35,398 nt of DNA from Arenimonas sp. (GTDB lineage Bacteria; Pseudomonadota; Gammaproteobacteria; Xanthomonadales; Xanthomonadaceae): positions 1 to 35,398 of the forward strand of contig NZ_JALHQI010000034.1 of NCBI RefSeq assembly GCF_022842045.1. The letters are read 5' to 3'. Made by a program: the position numbers and the translations under genes. Under the pieces are notes generated by a model. The model was given only the letters and a program-made list of their open reading frames with translations. It was not told the DNA's origin and ran no database searches. Within the stretch, counting starts at the first letter, position 1. The number at the start of each line of letters is the position of its first letter. This document shows positions 1 through 8,730 of the stretch, piece after piece.

Positions 1-1130
1 CGATCGCGCTGTCGCAGTCGCAGGGCGGCGGCGCGCGCGCCAGCGGCGGCGGCAGCCAGGCCGGCGACGCCACCGCGGCCGCCATCACCGGCGCCGCGGC
101 CCTGATGCAGCAGCGCCAGATCGACTACACCCGCTCGAACGAGTCCGAGGCCGACCGCGTCGGCATCCAGACCCTCGCCCGCGCGGGCTATTCACCCGGC
201 GGCATGGCCGATTTCTTCGAGCGCATGCAGCGCGCCAGCCGCGGCAACCGCGGCGGCTACCAGCTGCCCGAGTACCTGCGCAGCCACCCGGTCACCACCA
301 CCCGCATCAGCGAAACCCGCCAGCGCGCCGAACAGCTGGCCGCGCAGCCCGGCCACGGCCCGATCCGCGCCCCCGTGGCCACCTCGCTGCTGCTGCCGGG
401 CGAGTTCAGCCTGGGCGACAGCGGCCTGCGCGGCGGCAGCGAGGCCTTCCCCTGGGCGCGGGAGCGGCTGCGCGTGCTCAGCGCCGACAATGCGGCGGCG
501 GCGTTGCGCGAATACCGCGCCCTGGCGAACGCGCCGGGCGCCCAAGTCAGCGACGCCCAGCGCTACGGGCTGGCCCTGGCCCAGATGCGCGGCGGCTACC
601 CGGCCGAGGCCGAGGCCACGCTGGCCGACCTGCTCCGGCGCCATCCGGGCCAGCTGTGGCTGGAGCTGGCCCAGGCCGAGGCCGCCGGGATCGGTGGCCG
701 CCACGCCGTCTCGCGCGAACGCTTCGAGGCCCTGGTTACCCGCCATCCCGACAACCGCGCCGTCCGCCTGGCCTACGCCGAAGGCCTGGGCAAGCAGGCC
801 ACGCCCGAGGCCGGCCGTCGCGCCCAGGCCGTGCTGCGCCCGCTTCTGGCCACCGGCGGCGACGACCCGGTGTTCCAGCGCAGCTTCGCCCGCGCCAGCG
901 AGCTGGCCGGCGACCTCGTCCGCGCCGGCGAGGCCTACGCCGAGACCGCCTACCTCAACGGCCGCGCCGTGGACGCCCTGAACCAGCTCGACGCGCTCAA
1001 GCGCCGGGACGACCTGGACTACTACCAGCGCGCCCGCATCGAGGCTCGCATGGCCGCGATCACCCCCGTGGTGCTGGAGATGGAGCGCCAGGGCATCCGT
1101 CCGGAACAGCAGCGCCCAGACCGCCAGTAA
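1..1130 (+). CDS. bepA: BepA-type M48 metalloprotease with TPR tail, 3' part
   Basis: This gene is open at the window edge; the frame runs from base 3 without a stop and gives 375 residues of its C-terminal part. After an Ala/Gly-rich stretch comes the NESEADRVG segment, whose second Glu is the third zinc ligand in the BepA/YfgC branch of family M48, then the conserved RAGYSPGGMADFFERM and LRSHPVTTTRISE blocks. The remainder is an alpha-helical TPR-like tail (roughly residues 120-340 of the visible part). The HExxH zinc motif and the signal peptide would lie upstream of the window. Known BepA proteins work in the periplasm on outer-membrane assembly, degrading stalled LptD or BamA clients. 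Only 81 bp separate its stop from the phoB start, and those carry a Pho-box-like promoter, so it is probably transcribed apart from phoBR. Family assignment is secure; the symbol is by family resemblance. Confidence 0.85.
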   Translation, partial: IALSQSQGGGARASGGGSQAGDATAAAITGAAALMQQRQIDYTRSNESEADRVGIQTLARAGYSPGGMADFFERMQRASRGNRGGYQLPEYLRSHPVTTTRISETRQRAEQLAAQPGHGPIRAPVATSLLLPGEFSLGDSGLRGGSEAFPWARERLRVLSADNAAAALREYRALANAPGAQVSDAQRYGLALAQMRGGYPAEAEATLADLLRRHPGQLWLELAQAEAAGIGGRHAVSRERFEALVTRHPDNRAVRLAYAEGLGKQATPEAGRRAQAVLRPLLATGGDDPVFQRSFARASELAGDLVRAGEAYAETAYLNGRAVDALNQLDALKRRDDLDYYQRARIEARMAAITPVVLEMERQGIRPEQQRPDRQ

Positions 1131-1142
1131 GCCCCGCCGACC

Positions 1143-1174
1143 CTGTCACCCGCCGGTCACAAAAGTTTTATCTA
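1143..1174 (+). promoter_or_regulatory. Pho-box-like promoter of phoB
   Basis: Two 7-bp direct repeats, CTGTCAC (1143-1149) and CGGTCAC (1154-1160), are separated by 4 bp. This is the 11-bp register of the PhoB-binding Pho box (consensus CTGTCAT-N4-CTGTCAT). An A/T-rich patch follows, with a possible -10 TATCTA at 1169-1174, eight bases after the second repeat, which is near the normal geometry for PhoB-activated promoters. It lies 51 bp before the phoB GTG. Inference: phoBR is autoregulated by phosphate starvation. Confidence 0.65.
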
Positions 1175-1211
1175 CTTGCACCACGGCCCACCCGGTGACA
1201 CGGTACCCCTC

Positions 1212-1904
1212 GTGCAAAAACGCATCCTGATCGTCGACGATGAACCCGCCATCCGCGAGATGGTGGCCTATGCCCTGCGCAAGGGCGACTACGACCCGGT
1301 CCACGCCGGCGACGCCCGCGAGGCCCAGCACGCCATCGCGGAAAAGGTGCCCGACCTCATCCTGCTCGACTGGATGCTGCCCGGCGCCAGCGGCCTGGAG
1401 CTGGCCCGGCGCTGGCGCAAGGACGAGCTGACCCGCGACGTGCCGATCATCATGCTCACCGCCCGCGGCGAGGAGAACGACCGCGTCAGCGGCCTGGAAT
1501 CGGGCGTGGACGACTACGTGGTCAAGCCCTTCTCGGCCCGCGAGCTGCTGGCCCGGATCCGGGCCGTGATGCGCCGCTCGCGCGAGGACGAAGATGACGG
1601 TTCGGTGACAGTCGGCGGCCTGCGCATCGATGGCGCCGCCCACCGCGTCTACGCCGGCGATCAGCCGGTGCACGTCGGCCCGACCGAGTACCGCCTGCTG
1701 CACTTCTTCATGACCCACGCCGAGCGCGTGTATTCGCGCACCCAGCTGCTGGACCACGTCTGGGGCGGCAACGTCTACGTCGAGGAGCGAACCGTGGACG
1801 TGCACATCCGCCGCCTGCGCAAGGCGCTCGAGCCCTACCGCCTGGACGACATGGTGCAGACCGTGCGCGGCTCCGGCTACCGCTTCTCCGCCGCGGCGGC
1901 CTGA
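1212..1904 (+). CDS. phoB: Phosphate regulon response regulator PhoB
   Basis: This is an OmpR/PhoB-family response regulator of 230 residues, almost the length of E. coli PhoB. The N-terminal receiver has the acidic pair D9-D10, phospho-acceptor D53 in the LLDWMLP strand, switch residue T83 and K105 in VVKPF. The C-terminal winged-helix domain (about 130-228) contains the [15 protein letters not shown]-like recognition region and ends with [10 protein letters not shown] chose the GTG at 1212 because the product then begins [12 protein letters not shown], aligning with the family start; a TTG at 1176 in the same frame would add 12 unlikely residues. No clear Shine-Dalgarno precedes the GTG. 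When phosphorylated by PhoR it binds Pho boxes and activates phosphate-starvation genes. phoR follows after 19 bp. Confidence 0.93.
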
Positions 1905-1923: not shown

Positions 1924-3252
1924 ATGAGCGTATCGATGCTGCTTCGGCTGGCCTGGCGCCAGTCCCTGATCCGGATGCTGCTGTTTTATGCCTTCGCGCT
2001 CGGCATCGGGCTGGCGCTGGGCGAACCCTGGTGGGCCCTGGGCCTGGCCACCGCGGTGCTGGCGGCGCGCGCCTACTGGCGCCTGTACCGGGTGCTGCGC
2101 TTCCTGGACTGGCGCAAGCAGCTGCGCACCGTGGACGGGCAGGGCCTGTGGGCCGCGCTGGAAACCCTGATCCACCGCCGCCAGACCGAGAACCGCAGCC
2201 GCGGCCGGCGCTTGGTGCGCCTGCTGCGGGCCTATCGCCAGGCAGCGACCGCGATGCCCGACGGCGCCCTGGTGATCCAGCGCCGCGATGGCCGCCTGGT
2301 CTGGTTCAACAAGACCGCGCGCCGCCTGCTGGGCCTGCACTACCCGCAGAGCCTGGAGACGCCCCTGCTCGACTGCTTCCCCGAGCAGCCGCGCGTGCGC
2401 GAGTGGCTGGCCGCCGGCCAGACCGACGAGCCGCTGCTCGACCTGGCCAGCCCGGCGGACCCGATGGTGCGCATCAGCCTGCGCCTGATCCCCTACTCCG
2501 CCACCCAGTGGATGGTGGTGGTGCGCGACGTCACCAAGCTGATGCGGCTCGAACAGGTGCGCCGCGACTTCGTAGCCAACGTCTCGCACGAGCTGCGCAC
2601 GCCGCTGACCGTGGTGCACGGCTACCTCGACATGATCGAGCCCGAGGAACACCCCGAGCTGGCGGTGATGGTGGAGGAGATGCGCCGGCAGTCGCAGCGC
2701 ATGACCCAGCTGGTCGAGGACCTGCTGACGCTGTCGCGGCTCGAGGCCCAGGAGCACCTTCCCGAGGAGCCGCTGGCGATGGCGCCGATGCTGGTCACCC
2801 TGCGGCGCGAGGCCGAGGCGCTGAGCCAGGGTCGCCACAAGATCGTCGTCGAGGACGCCGCCGGCTGCGACCTGGTCGGCTCGGTGAAGGAGCTGCACAG
2901 TGCCTTCTCGAACCTTGTCAGCAATGCCGTGCGCTACACGCCCACCGACGGCCGCATCGTCATCCGCTTCGAGCGCACCGCCGACCGCGGCGCCCGCCTC
3001 GCGGTGCAGGACAGCGGCCAGGGCATCCCGGCCCAGCACCTGCCGCGCATCACCGAGCGCTTCTACCGGGTCTCCACCAGCCGCTCGCGCGAATCGGGCG
3101 GCACCGGCCTCGGCCTGTCCATCGTCAAGCACGTGCTGAGCCTGCACCAGGCCTGGCTGGAGATCGACAGCGAAGTGGGCCGCGGCAGCACCTTCGCCTG
3201 CGTCTTCGGCCCGGCCCGGGTGCGGCCGCGCGACGCCGCCGGCGAGGCCTGA
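1924..3252 (+). CDS. phoR: Phosphate regulon sensor histidine kinase PhoR
   Basis: This is a 442-residue membrane-bound histidine kinase. Two closely spaced N-terminal hydrophobic helices (about 15-32 and 37-50) leave almost no periplasmic loop, as in PhoR, which senses phosphate through the Pst-PhoU complex rather than directly. A PAS domain (about 98-205) follows, then the HisKA helix with H222 in FVANVSHELRTPL, and a HATPase_c domain with the N box (N330-N334), the DSGQGI G1 box (363-368) and the GGTGLGLSI G2 box (392-400). All catalytic motifs are intact. It phosphorylates PhoB under phosphate limitation. It lies 19 bp after phoB, almost certainly in the same transcript. No pst or phoU genes are visible in the window. 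Confidence 0.93.
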   Translation: MSVSMLLRLAWRQSLIRMLLFYAFALGIGLALGEPWWALGLATAVLAARAYWRLYRVLRFLDWRKQLRTVDGQGLWAALETLIHRRQTENRSRGRRLVRLLRAYRQAATAMPDGALVIQRRDGRLVWFNKTARRLLGLHYPQSLETPLLDCFPEQPRVREWLAAGQTDEPLLDLASPADPMVRISLRLIPYSATQWMVVVRDVTKLMRLEQVRRDFVANVSHELRTPLTVVHGYLDMIEPEEHPELAVMVEEMRRQSQRMTQLVEDLLTLSRLEAQEHLPEEPLAMAPMLVTLRREAEALSQGRHKIVVEDAAGCDLVGSVKELHSAFSNLVSNAVRYTPTDGRIVIRFERTADRGARLAVQDSGQGIPAQHLPRITERFYRVSTSRSRESGGTGLGLSIVKHVLSLHQAWLEIDSEVGRGSTFACVFGPARVRPRDAAGEA

Positions 3253-3320: not shown

Positions 3321-5399
3321 ATGAGCCCAGACTTGCCCGAAGCCCTCGACCTGCACGCCCCGGGGCTCTACCTCAACCGCGAGCTGTCCCAGCTGGAGTT
3401 CAACTTCCGCGTGCTGGCGCAGGCCCAGGACCCTTCGGTGCCGCTGCTCGAGCGCCTGAAGTACCTGTGCATCAGCTGCACCAACCTCGACGAGTTCTTC
3501 GAGATCCGCGCGGCCACCGTGCGCACCGCCCAGCAGTTCGGCGGCCCGCTGCCGCCCGACGGCATCCCGCCGACCCAGGCGCTGGAGCTCATCCACGACA
3601 AGGCCGCCAGCCTGGTCGAAGAGCAGTACCGCTACTGGAACGAAACCCTGCGGCCCGAGCTCAACGCCGCCGGCATCCGCATCCTCGCGCACTCGTCCTG
3701 GAACGCGCGCCAGAAGAAGTGGCTGCACAAGTACTTCCAGGACGAACTGCTGCCGGTGCTGTCGCCGCTGGGCCTGGACCCGGTGCATCCGTTCCCGCGC
3801 ATCCTCAACAAGTCGCTGAACGTGGTGGTGGTGCTCGAGGGCAAGGACGCGTTCGGCCGCAGCGGCGGCATGGCGATCGTGCGCGCGCCGCGCTCGCTGC
3901 CGCGCATCATCCAGCTGCCGCCGGAAGTCTCGGGCGGCCAGCATGATTTCGTGCTGCTTTCGGCCGTGCTCACCGCCTTCGTGGATGATCTTTTCACGGG
4001 CATGAAGGTCAAGGGCGCCTACCAGTTCCGCGTCACCCGCAACTCCGAGCTGTTCGTGGACGAGGAGGAAGTGGAGAACCTGGCCAGCGCGCTCAAGGAC
4101 GAACTCGCCAGCCGCGGCTTCCGCCCCGCGGTGCGGCTGGAGATCGCCGAGCACTGCCCCAAGCCGATCGTCGCCATCCTGCTGCAGAACTTCGGCCTGA
4201 CCGAGAACGCGGTGTACCGCATCAACGGCCCGGTCAACCTCAACCGCGTCACCCAGGTCTACGACCTGGTGAACCGGCCCGAGCTCAAGTTCCGCCCGTT
4301 CCGGCAGCGGCCCGCCGACCTCGACGAGGATTCGCCCTTCACCACGCTGCGCCAGGGCGACGTGCTGCTGCACCACCCCTACCAGAGCTTCCAGTCGGTG
4401 CTCGACCTGCTGCAGCACGCCGCCAACGACCCGGACGTGCTGGCGATCAAGCAGACGCTCTACCGCACCGGCAAGGACAGCAAGATCATCGAGCACCTGA
4501 TCACGGCCGCCCGCAACGGCAAGGACGTGACCGTGGTGGTCGAGCTGCGCGCGCGCTTCGACGAGGAGGCCAACATCCGCTTGGCCGACCAGCTGCAGGA
4601 GGCCGGCGTGCAGGTGATGTACGGCGTGGTGGGCTACAAGACCCACGCCAAGATGATGCTGATCGTGCGCCGCGAGGGGAAGAAGCTGCAGCGCTACGTG
4701 CACCTGGGCACCGGCAACTACCACGCCGGCACCGCCCGCGTGTACACCGACATCGGCCTGATGACCGCCGACCCGGACATCGCCGCCGACGTGCACGACA
4801 TCTTCCACCAGCTCTCGGGCCTGGCGCCGAAGATCAAGCTGCGCCGGCTGCTGCAGTCGCCCTTCACCCTGCACGCGGCGCTGCTCAAGAAGATCGCCCG
4901 CGAGGCCGAGCTGGCCCGCGCCGGCAAGGGTGGCCGCATCATCGCCAAGATGAACGCACTCAACGAGCCCGGCGTGATCCGCGCGCTGTACGAGGCCTCG
5001 CAGGCGGGCGCGAAGATCGACCTGATCGTGCGCGGCGCCTGCTGCCTGCGGCCGGGCGTGCCGGGCGTGTCGGAGAACATCCGGGTGCGCTCGGTGATCG
5101 GCCGCTTCCTAGAGCACAGCCGCGTTTACTGGTTCGGCAACGGCGGCAAGCCCGAGATCTTCTGCTCCAGCGCCGACTGGATGGAGCGCAACCTGATGCG
5201 CCGGGTGGAGACCTGCTTCCCCATCCTCGACCCGAAGCTGGCCGAGCGCGTCTACGACGAGGAGCTGGCCAACTACCTGGCCGACAACCTCAACGCCTGG
5301 GTGCTGCACGAGGACGGCCACTACGCGCGGGTCTCGCCGCCGGAGGGCGAGATGCCTTATTCTGCGCAGGGCGCGCTACTCGCCCGTCTTTGCGGATGA
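3321..5399 (+). CDS. ppk1: Polyphosphate kinase 1
   Basis: This enzyme reversibly polymerises the gamma phosphate of ATP into inorganic polyphosphate. It is 692 residues, matching the roughly 690 of E. coli PPK. The N domain starts with the family pattern LYLNRELSQLEFNFRVL and CISCTNLDEFFEIRAA. The catalytic C1/C2 domains have the phospholipase-D-like fold. The phosphohistidine equivalent of E. coli H435 is H442 in KTHAKMMLI, and the second catalytic His is H599 in FLEHSRVYWFGNGG. The HLGTGNYH and SSADWMERNLMRRVE blocks are also present. The ATG at 3321 fits the family start, although no Shine-Dalgarno is obvious; a TAAGCT -10 candidate lies at 3277-3282. ppx begins 6 bp downstream, so synthesis and breakdown of polyphosphate are co-transcribed. 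Confidence 0.95.
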   Translation: MSPDLPEALDLHAPGLYLNRELSQLEFNFRVLAQAQDPSVPLLERLKYLCISCTNLDEFFEIRAATVRTAQQFGGPLPPDGIPPTQALELIHDKAASLVEEQYRYWNETLRPELNAAGIRILAHSSWNARQKKWLHKYFQDELLPVLSPLGLDPVHPFPRILNKSLNVVVVLEGKDAFGRSGGMAIVRAPRSLPRIIQLPPEVSGGQHDFVLLSAVLTAFVDDLFTGMKVKGAYQFRVTRNSELFVDEEEVENLASALKDELASRGFRPAVRLEIAEHCPKPIVAILLQNFGLTENAVYRINGPVNLNRVTQVYDLVNRPELKFRPFRQRPADLDEDSPFTTLRQGDVLLHHPYQSFQSVLDLLQHAANDPDVLAIKQTLYRTGKDSKIIEHLITAARNGKDVTVVVELRARFDEEANIRLADQLQEAGVQVMYGVVGYKTHAKMMLIVRREGKKLQRYVHLGTGNYHAGTARVYTDIGLMTADPDIAADVHDIFHQLSGLAPKIKLRRLLQSPFTLHAALLKKIAREAELARAGKGGRIIAKMNALNEPGVIRALYEASQAGAKIDLIVRGACCLRPGVPGVSENIRVRSVIGRFLEHSRVYWFGNGGKPEIFCSSADWMERNLMRRVETCFPILDPKLAERVYDEELANYLADNLNAWVLHEDGHYARVSPPEGEMPYSAQGALLARLCG

Positions 5400-5405
5400 C
5401 ACCGG

Positions 5406-6926
5406 ATGCCGACTGAAGCCGAGCAGCCACTGAAAGATGGTGACCTGCTGGCCGCGGTCGACCTGGGCTCCAACAGTTTCCACATGGTCGTGGCCCGCTA
5501 CGTGCTGGGCCAGCTGCGCATCGTCGACCGCATCAAGGAAACCGTGCGCCTGGCCGAGGGCCTGGACGGCGAAGGCGGCCTCAACCCCGACGTGATGCCG
5601 CGCGCGCTCGACTGCCTGGCCCGCTTCGGCCAGCGGCTCGACACCATCCCGGCGCACCGCGTGCGCGCCATCGCCACCAACACCGTGCGTGCGCTGCGCA
5701 ACCCGCAGGGCTTCCTGATGCCGGCCGAAACCGCGCTAGGGCACGGCATCGAGATCGTCGCCGGCCGCGAGGAGGCGCGCCTGATCTACCTGGGCGTGGC
5801 GCACGGCAGCCCGCCGGCCGAAGGCAAACGCCGGCTGGTGATGGACATCGGCGGCGGCAGCACCGAGTTCATCATCGGCGAGGGCTTCGAGGCGGTGGAG
5901 CGCGAGAGCCTGCAGATGGGCTGCATCGCCACCACCCGCCGGTTCTTCGGCGACGGCAAGCTCTCGCGCAAGCGCTGGAAGGAGGCCCGCACCGAGATCA
6001 CCGCCGAGTTCCAGCAGTTCACCAGCGCCTACCGCCGCCGTGGCTGGCACGATGCCATGGGCTCGTCGGGCACCATCAAGGCGATCTGCGACATCTCGAT
6101 CGCACTCAAGATCACCAAGGCCTCGATCACCGCGCAGAGCCTGGACGCGATCCGCGAGAAGCTGCTCGAGTTCGACAAGCTCGAGGACATCCGGCTGCCG
6201 GGCCTGTCGTCCGAGCGCAGGCCGATCATCGCCGGTGGCCTGCTGGTGCTCGACGCCGCCTTCTCCGAGCTCGGCATCGAGCGCATGTACGTCAGCGACC
6301 ATGCGATGCGCGAGGGCGTGCTGTACGACCTGGTCGGCCGCGCCAGCGAAACCGACCCCCGCGAGGCGTCCATCGTCGCGCTGAGCAACCGCTATGGCGT
6401 CGATCCCGCGCAGTCGGCGCGGGTCGAGGCCACCGCGCTGCGGCTGTTCGACCAGGTCGAGGCGGCCTGGGGCCTGGACGGCGACAACCGCCGGCTGCTG
6501 GCCTGGGCCGCGCGCATCCACGAGCTGGGGCTGGCGATCGCCCACAGCCAGTACCACCAGCACGGCGCCTACGTGGTCGAGCACTCCGACATCGCCGGCT
6601 TCTCGCGCACCGAGCAGCAGATCCTGGCCGCACTGGTGCGCAACCAGCGCCGCGGCGTCCACCTGGGCAGCATCGAGAAGCTGCCCGACCGCCTGATCCC
6701 CAACACCCTGCGCTGCGCCCTGCTTCTGCGCCTGGCGGTGCTGCTGCACCGCAGCCACGAGCGCGACCCGCTGCCGCTGGCCGAAGCCACCGCCGACGGC
6801 GACACGCTGTCGATCAAGCTGTCCAAGCGTTGGCTCGAAGGCCACCCGCTGACCCGCCTGGACCTCGAGACCGAGCGGGAGCACCTCCAGGAAATCGGCC
6901 GCAAGCTGGTCATCAAGGCCGCCTGA
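5406..6926 (+). CDS. ppx: Exopolyphosphatase (Ppx/GppA family)
   Basis: The 506-residue product hydrolyses terminal phosphate from polyphosphate; E. coli PPX has 513 residues. The ASKHA-type N-terminal half has the first phosphate loop DLGSNSFHMVVAR (from residue 19), the catalytic-Glu region GREEARLIYLGV, and the second loop MDIGGGSTEFIIGEGF (about 145-160). The C-terminal half is HD-like, with RIHELGLAIAHSQYHQHGAYVVEHSDIAGF. The long C-terminal domain makes PPX more likely than the related pppGpp phosphatase GppA, though sequence alone does not exclude that activity. The ATG is 6 bp after ppk1. The stop codon overlaps the first unit of a Pho-box-like array that precedes the next gene. Confidence 0.92.
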   Translation: MPTEAEQPLKDGDLLAAVDLGSNSFHMVVARYVLGQLRIVDRIKETVRLAEGLDGEGGLNPDVMPRALDCLARFGQRLDTIPAHRVRAIATNTVRALRNPQGFLMPAETALGHGIEIVAGREEARLIYLGVAHGSPPAEGKRRLVMDIGGGSTEFIIGEGFEAVERESLQMGCIATTRRFFGDGKLSRKRWKEARTEITAEFQQFTSAYRRRGWHDAMGSSGTIKAICDISIALKITKASITAQSLDAIREKLLEFDKLEDIRLPGLSSERRPIIAGGLLVLDAAFSELGIERMYVSDHAMREGVLYDLVGRASETDPREASIVALSNRYGVDPAQSARVEATALRLFDQVEAAWGLDGDNRRLLAWAARIHELGLAIAHSQYHQHGAYVVEHSDIAGFSRTEQQILAALVRNQRRGVHLGSIEKLPDRLIPNTLRCALLLRLAVLLHRSHERDPLPLAEATADGDTLSIKLSKRWLEGHPLTRLDLETEREHLQEIGRKLVIKAA

Positions 6927-6964
6927 GTCACGGCGCTGCAACCCGGCGGTCACGGCACTGGCAC
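6925..6964 (+). promoter_or_regulatory. Double Pho-box-like array before the glycosyltransferase
   Basis: Four 7-bp units start exactly 11 bp apart: GAGTCAC (6925), CTGCAAC (6936), CGGTCAC (6947) and CTGGCAC (6958). The last two are each 6/7 to CTGTCAC and have the 4-bp spacer of a Pho box; the first two are each 5/7. Two tandem Pho boxes of this kind are known at strong PhoB-activated promoters. The array ends 22 bp before the ATG at 6987. I see no convincing -10 in that G/C-rich interval, so the promoter itself is unproven. The in-register periodicity is direct observation; PhoB binding is inference. Confidence 0.5.
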
Positions 6965-6986
6965 GGGCGCACGGCAGCCTGTCGCC

Positions 6987-8126
6987 ATGGACAGACTCCT
7001 GCACATCGAACTGGTCACCGAGACCTACCCGCCGGACGTCAACGGCGTCGCCCTCACCGTGCAGTCGCTCGAGCACGGGCTGCGCCAGCAGGGCCACACG
7101 GTCGGCATCGTCCGCCCGCAGCGCGACGACGAGAGCCCGCGGCCCGACCCCGGCCTGCTGCTGGTGGAAGGCGCGCCGATCCCCCGCTACCCCGGCCTGC
7201 GCTTCGGCCTGCCCGCCGGCAAGCGGCTGGCGGCGCGCTGGATGGCGCAGCGGCCCGACGCGGTCTACATCGCCACCGAAGGCCCGCTGGGCTGGTCCGC
7301 GCTGCGCGCCTGCCGCCGGCTGGGCATCCCGGTGGCCACCGGCTTCCACACCCGCTTCGACGACTACGTCGGCCGCTACGGCGCCGGCTTCCTGAGCCCC
7401 TGGGTGTTCTCGTGGCTGCGGCGCTTCCACAACAAGGCCGACGCCACCCTGGTGCCGACCCGCGAGCTCGAGGACGACCTGCGCCAGCAGGGCTTCCGCC
7501 ACGTGCGCCGGCTGGGCCGCGCGGTGGACACCCGGCAGTTCCATCCCGGCTGGCGCGACGAAACGCTGCGGGCGCAGTGGTCGCCGGATGGCGCGCCGAT
7601 CGTGCTGCACGTCGGCCGCATCGCGCCCGAGAAGAACCTGCCGCTGGCGGTGCGCAGCTTCCGCGCGCTGCAGGCGGAGCGGCCGGGCGCGCGCTTCGTG
7701 TGGGTTGGCGACGGCCCGGCACGCGCGGAGCTGCAGGCGGCCAACCCCGACTTCATCTTCGCCGGCGTGCAGCGCGGCGATGCACTGGCGCGGCACTTCG
7801 CCAGCGCCGACCTGTTCTGCTTCCCCAGCCTGTCGGAAACCTTCGGCAACGTGACGCTCGAAGCCATGGCCAGCGGCCTGGCCACGGTCGCGTTCGACTA
7901 CGGTGCGGCGCGCGAGCATCTGTGCAACGGGGCGCACGGCGCCACGGCGGCCTTCGGCGACGAGGCAGGCTTCGTGGACGCGTTCGTGCGGACCGGGCTG
8001 CGCCCGGATCTCGCGACGCTCGGCAGCGCGGCCCGGCAAGCGGTGCTGCACCTCGAGCCGGGCCAGGTGGCCGCGGACTTCGCCGCCCTGCTCGGGGCGC
8101 TCAGCCACTGGCGGGAAGCCGCGTGA
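6987..8126 (+). CDS. GT4-family glycosyltransferase, probable glycolipid synthase
   Basis: This is a 379-residue GT-B-fold glycosyltransferase of family 4. The N-terminal acceptor domain begins LHIELVTETYPPDVNGVALTV and has TGFHTRFDDYVGRYG. The C-terminal donor domain has VGRIAPEKNLPLAVRSF and the retaining-enzyme EX7E motif, E284 to E292, in SETFGNVTLEAMASG. There is no signal peptide or membrane helix, so it acts at the cytoplasmic face. Proteins of this type include mannosyl- and glucosyl-transferases that glycosylate diacylglycerol or phosphatidylinositol. Its stop codon overlaps the start of a PAP2 phosphatase (GTGA), implying translational coupling, and a Pho-box-like array precedes it. 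Inference: it makes a phosphate-free glycolipid from diacylglycerol under phosphate starvation. The sugar donor and acceptor cannot be read from sequence. Confidence 0.82.
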   Translation: MDRLLHIELVTETYPPDVNGVALTVQSLEHGLRQQGHTVGIVRPQRDDESPRPDPGLLLVEGAPIPRYPGLRFGLPAGKRLAARWMAQRPDAVYIATEGPLGWSALRACRRLGIPVATGFHTRFDDYVGRYGAGFLSPWVFSWLRRFHNKADATLVPTRELEDDLRQQGFRHVRRLGRAVDTRQFHPGWRDETLRAQWSPDGAPIVLHVGRIAPEKNLPLAVRSFRALQAERPGARFVWVGDGPARAELQAANPDFIFAGVQRGDALARHFASADLFCFPSLSETFGNVTLEAMASGLATVAFDYGAAREHLCNGAHGATAAFGDEAGFVDAFVRTGLRPDLATLGSAARQAVLHLEPGQVAADFAALLGALSHWREAA

Positions 8127-8659
8127 GCCCGCGCACCCGCCGGCTCGTCCTTCGCGAGCACGGTTGGTGCCTGGCCGCCAATCGCCTGGGCGCGCGCGCC
8201 TGGGTGCGACTCTACTTCCGCGCCGTCAGCCGGCTTGGTGACGGGGCTTTCTGGTACGCGCTGATGGCGGCGCTGGTGCTGTTCGACGGCTGGCGCGGCC
8301 TCGCGGTGTCGGCGCAGCTGGCCGCCACCGGCCTGGTCGCGCTGACGATGTACCGCAAGCTCAAGCGCTGGACCCGACGCCCGCGCCCCTTCGCGGCCGA
8401 TGGCCGCATCCGCGCCTGGGAAGCGCCGCTCGACGAGTTCTCGTTCCCCTCCGGGCACACGCTGCACGCGGTGTCCTTCACCCTGGTCGCGCTCGCGCAC
8501 TACCCGATGCTGGCCTGGCTGCTGGTGCCCTTCACCGCCAGCGTCGCCGCGTCGCGCGTGGTCCTGGGCCTGCACTACCCCAGCGACGTGCTGGCGGCGT
8601 CGGGCATCGCCTCGGCACTGGCGGCGCTGTCGGTCTGGGCCTTCCAAGCGATGCTCTGA
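8123..8659 (+). CDS. PAP2-family membrane lipid phosphatase
   Basis: This 178-residue integral membrane phosphatase carries all three PAP2 signatures: K81-X6-R88-P89, P109-S110-G111-H112 and S144-R145-X5-H151 with D155 in HYPSD. Hydrophobic helices lie near 40-60, 62-76, 113-125, 127-143 and 157-175. Family members dephosphorylate phosphatidic acid, phosphatidylglycerophosphate or undecaprenyl pyrophosphate. The GTG at 8123 overlaps the TGA of the upstream glycosyltransferase by two bases and puts the start directly at SPRTRRLVLREHGW; no start further upstream is needed. The pairing suggests phosphatidate-to-diacylglycerol conversion supplying the glycosyltransferase, which is inference. A REP pair follows its stop. 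Confidence 0.85.
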   Translation: MSPRTRRLVLREHGWCLAANRLGARAWVRLYFRAVSRLGDGAFWYALMAALVLFDGWRGLAVSAQLAATGLVALTMYRKLKRWTRRPRPFAADGRIRAWEAPLDEFSFPSGHTLHAVSFTLVALAHYPMLAWLLVPFTASVAASRVVLGLHYPSDVLAASGIASALAALSVWAFQAML

Positions 8660-8665
8660 CATCCG

Positions 8666-8730
8666 TGTGGGAGGGACTTCAGTCCCGACGCCCTTCGCCA
8701 GGAAGCATCGGGACGGAAGTCCCTCCCACA
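8666..8730. repeat. Inverted pair of xanthomonad REP elements
   Basis: Two 26-bp copies in opposite orientation, 8666-8691 and 8705-8730, are separated by 13 bp. They differ at only two positions. Each copy contains its own small hairpin (GGGAC stem with a 4-base loop), and the pair can fold into one long stem. The core TGTGGGAGGGACTTC resembles the REP family common in Xanthomonas, Stenotrophomonas and Lysobacter intergenic regions. It lies between the convergent stops of the PAP2 gene and a GNAT gene, so it could terminate or insulate transcription in both directions. Confidence 0.85.

Follow-up and report, generated by a model that had tools for sequence, protein, structure and literature searches.

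A candidate Pho-controlled operon coupling an Agt2-type glycosyltransferase to a PAP2 phosphatase in Arenimonas sp.

In phosphate-starved bacteria, lipid remodelling has mostly been attributed to PlcP, an enzyme that degrades phospholipid already present. Remodelling by PlcP together with an Agt glycosyltransferase is already known; here we describe a locus with the same kind of promoter and glycosyltransferase and a different coupled enzyme. It lies in a stretch of 35,398 nucleotides (nt) of Arenimonas sp. DNA, referred to below as the window (contig C34 of a draft genome of 3.08 Mb, 95% complete), where positions 6925-8659 hold a Pho-box array, a GT4-family glycosyltransferase gene and a gene for a PAP2 membrane phosphatase. 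A preliminary description of the window had proposed a Pho-controlled glycolipid cassette, apart from Agt and without PlcP. The cassette is still the best reading, because a conserved Pho-type promoter precedes a coupled GT4-PAP2 pair whose glycosyltransferase shares a clade with Agt2, whereas the separateness from Agt and the absence of PlcP beyond the window did not hold.

Among described systems, PlcP-Agt1/Agt2 of Pseudomonas aeruginosa (PMC8528852) shares with the window its GT4 clan and a promoter made of a Pho array, 10 nt, a -10 element and 6 nt to the start codon. The two differ in that the P. aeruginosa gene lies between plcR and a DegV-family gene, whereas the window GT4 is PAP2-coupled beside phoBR-ppk-ppx, and in that a PlcP with a Pho-box operon is described as supplying diacylglycerol (DAG) in P. 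aeruginosa (PMC8528852). The plcP-agt operons of Agrobacterium, SAR11 and other marine bacteria likewise combine a Pho box, an Agt-type enzyme, DAG as acceptor and a DAG-making neighbour (PMC4796936). Their Agts belong to the other clan of our tree, however, their DAG-making neighbour is PlcP, and the section text on plcP contexts names no PAP2 (PMC4796936). A Pho-controlled PlcP accompanying an Agt, by which the PlcP-Agt pathway is defined, was not found in the window, and the PlcP-family gene on contig C4 has no array. The GpgSDF pathway for glucosaminyl-phosphatidylglycerol employs a related GT4, but the window GT4 scores far under the family cut-off and has other neighbours, and gpgS is reported as a separate P. 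aeruginosa gene (PMC12713373). Finally, the PAP2 phosphatases LpxE, PgpB and YodM have the same fold and catalytic motifs as the window PAP2, which differs in its Pho promoter, its coupling to a glycosyltransferase and its loop charges, reversed relative to segments of LpxE and PgpB. Plastid and cyanobacterial phosphatidic acid phosphatases are also PAP2 lipid phosphate phosphatases. Among the matches listed from the open-licence PMC literature (titles and beginnings of abstracts), we found no description of a Pho-controlled GT4-PAP2 operon and none of lipid remodelling in the Xanthomonas-Lysobacter family.

Promoter architecture and its conservation

The four 7-bp units first noted at 6925, 6936, 6947 and 6958, in an 11-bp register, were confirmed. 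Compared with CTGTCAY, they match at 5, 5, 6 and 6 of 7 positions each (22/28), which makes this the highest-scoring four-unit, 11-bp site on either strand of the 35-kb window, and no score of 22 or more arose in 200 dinucleotide shuffles of the entire window. The runner-up (20/28, at 1143) lies 5' of phoB, in a GTCA array that is probably the autoregulatory Pho box of that gene; upstream regions of phoB were long enough in two related loci, one of which scores at least 19.

Conservation of the array was assessed around GT4 orthologues; 165 of the 198 genomes sampled from the family have one (E <= 1e-30). We read 60 of these 165 loci, up to 11 kb each, from 42 of the 54 sampled genera and including seven loci of the same genus. 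The scan of relatives suggested in the preliminary description was borne out, as the best array begins 51-107 nt 5' of the GT4 start in all 60 family loci, with the period of 11 conserved and p <= 0.03 in every case (200 dinucleotide shuffles each). Scores of at least 21 were obtained in 30/60 loci at period 11 and in 0/60 at each of periods 8, 9, 10, 12, 13 and 14. Likewise, 56 of the 60 GT4 upstream regions score at least 19, versus none of 148 control upstream regions from the same loci (ppk, 0/27; ppx, 0/33; PAP2, 0/60; GNAT, 0/28), and the best of the six other periods attains this score in 2/60 GT4 and 2/28 GNAT upstream regions. An alignment of 10 loci shows the GTCA cores kept and the spacers diverged. 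In a sample across the class, 78 of 369 genomes had a GT4 match at E <= 1e-45; among the best 26 loci read from outside the family, 13 carry an array at p = 0.005, the floor of the mononucleotide shuffles, and four more at p 0.010-0.015. In a set of 80 named loci, which overlaps in part with the family sample, 79 have sufficient sequence upstream, and 55 of these carry the array at p <= 0.01.

The -10 element of Pho promoters follows the last Pho-box unit by about 10 nt. When score alone set the array register, 56/60 family loci (28/28, 18/19 and 10/13 in the three spacing classes) proved to have, exactly 10 nt past the last unit, a hexamer whose second base is A and whose sixth is T. The same geometry is seen at a pstS-like gene of the Arenimonas genome, where CTGTCAT, CTGTCAT, GAGCAAC and TTGTCAC are followed after 10 nt by TGTAAT (23/28; L105 1401-1640, contig C23, about 35.1 kb). 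This gene encodes a periplasmic binding-protein domain (Pfam PF12849), and from its sequence and array we take it to be pstS. In P. aeruginosa, the promoter of PA0842 reads CCGTCAC, GCGTCAC, ACTTCAC and GCTACAC (18/28, p = 0.005), then 10 nt, GACACT, 6 nt and ATG; in Acinetobacter baumannii, a GT4-PAP2 pair is preceded by a 22/28 array (p = 0.001) and TAATCT at 10 nt. The array at 6925-6964 is thus well supported as a conserved Pho-type promoter, to which we infer that PhoB would bind.

Since the predicted -10 element of the window ends 6 nt before the GT4 ATG, the GT4 mRNA is probably leaderless. A gap of only 6-7 nt between -10 element and start codon also occurs in 15/60 family loci and at PA0842, so leaderless translation of the GT4 gene may be common. 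In the biggest spacing class, the leader is longer and includes a purine-rich site.

The glycosyltransferase and its PAP2 partner

The GT4-PAP2 pair had been presented as an alternative to the PlcP-Agt route, but the phylogeny does not set its GT4 apart from Agt. In a tree of 80 proteins, the window group (62 members) and Agts of the PlcP-linked type (18 members) form two clans with support of 100/100, and all 11 Pseudomonas rows fall in the window's clan, 10 of them as one clade. The window GT4 is 53% identical to a P. aeruginosa relative over 332 residues (1-332) and 37% identical to the best member of the PlcP-linked clan. In the P. aeruginosa record, the gene of this relative lies directly 3' of plcR and its other neighbour is a DegV-family gene; because plcR adjoins it directly upstream, we took it to be PA0842. 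PA0842 was outside the tree set and scores 294-558 bits against the window clan versus 152-196 against PlcP-type Agts. Membership of the window GT4 in the Agt2 branch is therefore well supported. In published accounts, PA0843 is plcR and PA0846 is cysZ, and one figure legend handles PA0842-PA0847 as a single stretch (PMC5150637, PMC10687435); cysZ lies upstream of GT4 in 10 of the 11 Pseudomonas loci and directly adjoins it in four (L217, L220, L222 and L228). The plcR-PA0842 region, chromosomal in the reference strain, is also borne by NZ_CP131792.1 (L275), a record of 847 kb that is filed as a conjugative plasmid of P. aeruginosa.

PA0842 has been characterized as Agt2, with a Pho box and a 4-fold rise in low phosphate; in E. 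coli and in vitro, it makes glucuronosyl-diacylglycerol (GADG) from DAG and UDP-glucuronic acid, with weaker activity on UDP-glucose (PMC8528852). The window GT4 is, by its sequence, a probable diacylglycerol glycosyltransferase. Its Pfam domain, like that of PAP2, exceeds the cut-off. The EX7E motif is conserved in the GT4 alignment (E284 in at least 90% of rows, E292 in all), and the structure model has a predicted local distance difference test (pLDDT) score of 90.7, with GT4 structures ranking first among fold matches. Two genes of the NDP-sugar dehydrogenase family score above the curated cut-off in the genome, so a supply of UDP-glucuronate is plausible. Around weaker class matches (35-39% identity), 17 of 20 stretches have, next to the glycosyltransferase, a GNHD-motif open frame 261-404 aa long, the plcP-agt arrangement known from marine bacteria (PMC4796936).

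The coupling of the two genes proposed at the outset was upheld: they overlap by 4 nt, and PAP2 directly follows GT4 in all 60 family loci. Its start, as chosen by script, falls between -170 and +10 nt from the GT4 stop, at -4 in 23 loci and at -23 in 15. The tie to phoBR-ppk-ppx turned out to be common and not universal, with a same-strand ppx upstream of GT4 within 5 kb in 42/60 family loci and within 350 nt in 24/60. This partial linkage indicates that the pair is kept independently of the pho locus. Among the best 26 class loci, PAP2 is in the flank in 21 and directly downstream of GT4 in 18, as it is in 63 of the 80 named loci; those bearing the pair include Xanthomonas, Stenotrophomonas, Lysobacter, Luteimonas, Dyella and Rhodanobacter. 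It also occurs in bins of Thioalkalivibrio, Thiobacillus and Gallionella, and in A. baumannii a GT4 with 40% identity precedes an annotated PAP2 phosphatase. The pair is thus conserved across the Xanthomonas-Stenotrophomonas-Lysobacter family and present in Dyella, Rhodanobacter, Acinetobacter and several genomes of betaproteobacteria and sulfur oxidisers, some of them metagenome bins. One fully complete genome of the same genus (G128, 100%) has neither a GT4 nor a PlcP match at E <= 1e-30. A Tolypothrix campylonemoides scaffold filed as cyanobacterial (L162) shows the Lysobacteraceae order phoB-phoR-ppk-ppx-GT4-PAP2 and is probably a contaminant.

The window PAP2 retains KX6RP, PSGH and SRX5HX3D, whose residues are invariant in the PAP2 alignment, and 80 of 82 PAP2 proteins have the catalytic motifs together with an SRLGDG-like landmark. 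Its model (pLDDT 95.6) matches the fold of LpxE, PgpB and YodM. It is one of two PF01569 matches in the genome, the other being a 679-codon frame with PSAS in place of PSGH, unsuited to serve as a topology control. Among the 80 proteins with all landmarks, lysines and arginines average 8.1 on the N-terminal side and 6.6 in the active-site loop, versus 0.53 and 0.01 in the opposite loops; the corresponding opposite loops of LpxE (two) and PgpB (one) hold 4, 2 and 3 positive charges. By the positive-inside rule, the active site would face the cytoplasm, on the side of GT4, in contrast with the usual periplasmic orientation. The model draws residues 26-83 as a single helix and did not settle the topology, so the orientation is read from charges; it is a lead only, since catalytic Arg and Lys bias the charge test and just three control loops were available.

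Sources of diacylglycerol

We consider it fairly probable that positions 6925-8659 constitute an Agt2-PAP2 glycolipid operon that PhoB induces, with PAP2 converting phosphatidic acid to DAG. In low phosphate, two dimers of phosphorylated PhoB would bind in tandem to the four direct repeats and recruit RNA polymerase to the -10 element. The Agt2-type GT4 would then use a UDP-sugar to attach a single glucuronic acid or glucose residue to DAG; the resulting glycolipid, anionic or neutral, would contain no phosphorus. By stripping the phosphate from phosphatidic acid, the coupled PAP2 would provide that DAG, so that new glycerolipid would be diverted to glycolipid ahead of the phospholipid stage and its phosphate recovered. 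Most likely, the two-gene unit serves to exchange membrane lipids that contain phosphorus for sugar lipids; the promoter and glycosyltransferase assignments are well supported, and the PAP2 step is inferred.

Several findings weigh against this reading. Beyond the family, no array was found in 9 of the best 26 class loci, and it has p > 0.01 in 24 of the 79 named loci. The statement that PlcP is lacking is true of the window, where no neighbouring gene encodes one; for the genome as a whole it had to be rejected, as contig C4 carries a single, unlinked PlcP-family protein (C4:4414-5145, 279 bits). GT4, PlcP and PAP2 stand in a row in four loci (L141, L144, L146 and L210), and GT4 and PlcP in three (L221, L224 and L230). 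PAP2 is thus not simply a substitute for PlcP. In addition, 10 of the 11 Pseudomonas loci have a GT4 without an adjoining PAP2, so the glycosyltransferase can work without one. The NCBIfam models nearest to the window PAP2, PgpB and SepP, are both far under their cut-offs, and PAP2 proteins also use phosphatidylglycerol phosphate (PGP) and undecaprenyl pyrophosphate.

These observations could also be accommodated if the operon were Pho-controlled and its GT4 of Agt2 type while DAG was released by the PlcP-family enzyme encoded elsewhere, or by lipid turnover of another kind, and PAP2 was otherwise employed as an undecaprenyl pyrophosphate or PGP phosphatase or in salvaging phosphate from other lipid phosphates. 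We regard this alternative as rather unlikely. The C4 protein, for its part, shares 44% identity with one Agt-linked PlcP, but it scores under most Agt-linked PlcPs and its gene has no Pho array upstream (14/28, p = 0.85). A further PF00149 match (L121), 26% identical to PlcP, looks like LpxH. PlcP matches at E <= 1e-30 were found in 109 of the 198 family genomes; comparison by hand found none at this threshold in 20 of the 60 pair-bearing family genomes, 18 of which are at least 92% complete; PAP2 follows GT4 in every one of the 60. Of 42 class genomes with GT4 (E <= 2e-74), again compared by hand, 32 have PlcP (E <= 1e-40) and 10 have none. PAP2 is in the flank in 4/4 PlcP-negative and 17/22 PlcP-positive class loci, which is the expected direction with small numbers, and one of the five loci without PAP2 (L148) ends at a contig end. 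PlcP is divergent from GT4-PAP2 in L134, and one genome (G562) combines an Agt of the other clan, a 23/28 array and a divergent PAP2-motif frame, with no PlcP match at E <= 1e-40.

Taken together, these findings are most simply explained if DAG has two sources, PlcP drawing on old phospholipid and PAP2 on phosphatidic acid. PAP2 is a plausible alternative source in the window, and the pair points to a second supply that may exist besides PlcP. Its distribution predicts lipid remodelling in genera for which no report was found in the open-licence PMC literature. A P. aeruginosa plcP mutant is reported to produce glycolipid still (PMC8528852), and the pair suggests where to seek the PlcP-independent DAG behind it. 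More speculatively, and on balance doubtful, a PlcP-independent route could be widespread in Gammaproteobacteria, in which a PhoB-induced, cytoplasm-facing PAP2 would take de novo phosphatidic acid and hand DAG to Agt2, so that glycolipid synthesis bypasses phospholipid.

It is improbable that the GT4 instead glycosylates an intact phospholipid such as phosphatidylglycerol (PG) in a GpgS-like manner, with PAP2 supplying PG from its phosphate. The highest NCBIfam score of the window GT4 is to NF053787, an N-acetylglucosaminyl-PG synthase model with PG and not DAG as acceptor, which all 18 aligned GT4 members match; this too counts against an Agt2-PAP2 operon. Its 126.7 bits fall far short of the required 480, however, and GpgS membership was rejected on this score and on differing neighbours. 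Because the same model also ranks first for two PlcP-linked Agts, at 72 and 87 bits, and for two orthologues from Pseudomonas, at 140 and 144 bits, the match does not decide the acceptor. Moreover, gpgS is a separate gene (PA14_56030, PA0846 being PA14_53330), the flanking genes of the window GT4 (ppx, PAP2 and GNAT) include nothing like gpgD or gpgF, and a phospholipid product would save no phosphate. P. aeruginosa PA0842 itself uses DAG (PMC8528852). A chance run in GC-rich DNA, or a relic, is a next to negligible explanation of the array: single units match at only 5-6 of 7 positions and the spacers are G+C-rich, but the shuffles, the period control, the control upstream regions and the fixed -10 geometry in 56 of the 60 family loci rule out a chance run at the level of sequence.

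Gene layout and minor observations

The gene order read in the window is phoB-phoR-ppk1-ppx-GT4-PAP2, all on the + strand (Table 1). Among named relatives, the nearest one found is Arenimonas metalli, whose GT4 is 96% identical to that of the window; Arenimonas donghaensis DSM 18148 (L154) shares the gene order.

Table 1. Positions of the genes and promoter elements in the window
Feature	Positions	Strand	Basis
phoB	1218-1904	+	TIGR02154, 371.7 bits (cut-off 296.2)
phoR	1924-3252	+	TIGR02966, 389 bits (cut-off 334.2)
ppk1	3321-5399	+	TIGR03705, 933.5 bits (cut-off 465.85)
ppx/gppA phosphatase	5406-6926	+	PF02541; TIGR03706, 321.9 bits (cut-off 307)
Further period-11 array 5' of phoB	1121-1182	+	Scores 19, 19 and 20 of 28 at 1121, 1132 and 1143; pattern match too
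Pho-box unit 1, GAGTCAC, overlapping the ppx stop codon	6925-6931	+	Read directly
Pho-box unit 2, CTGCAAC	6936-6942	+	Read directly
Pho-box unit 3, CGGTCAC	6947-6953	+	Read directly
Pho-box unit 4, CTGGCAC	6958-6964	+	Read directly
Predicted -10 element, CAGCCT, 10 nt 3' of the last unit	6975-6980	+	Offset conserved in family loci
GT4 glycosyltransferase of the Agt2 (PA0842) clade, probable diacylglycerol glycosyltransferase	6987-8126	+	Pfam, tree, identity, model
PAP2 membrane phosphatase, GTG start overlapping the GT4 stop	8123-8659	+	Pfam, intact motifs, model

Downstream of PAP2, an inverted repeat of two arms, built on GTGGGAGGGACTTCAGTCCC, lies at 8667-8729 (chance expectation 0.00) and looks like a mobile REP-type element. 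In the closest relative (L006), a similar palindrome stands between ppx and GT4, just 5' of an intact array. Elsewhere in the genome, a period-11 array on the - strand of contig C23 (C23:26590-26627, L102) lies near genes for an ArsR-family regulator and then a glyceraldehyde-3-phosphate dehydrogenase, possibly an arsenate-handling unit under phosphate control.

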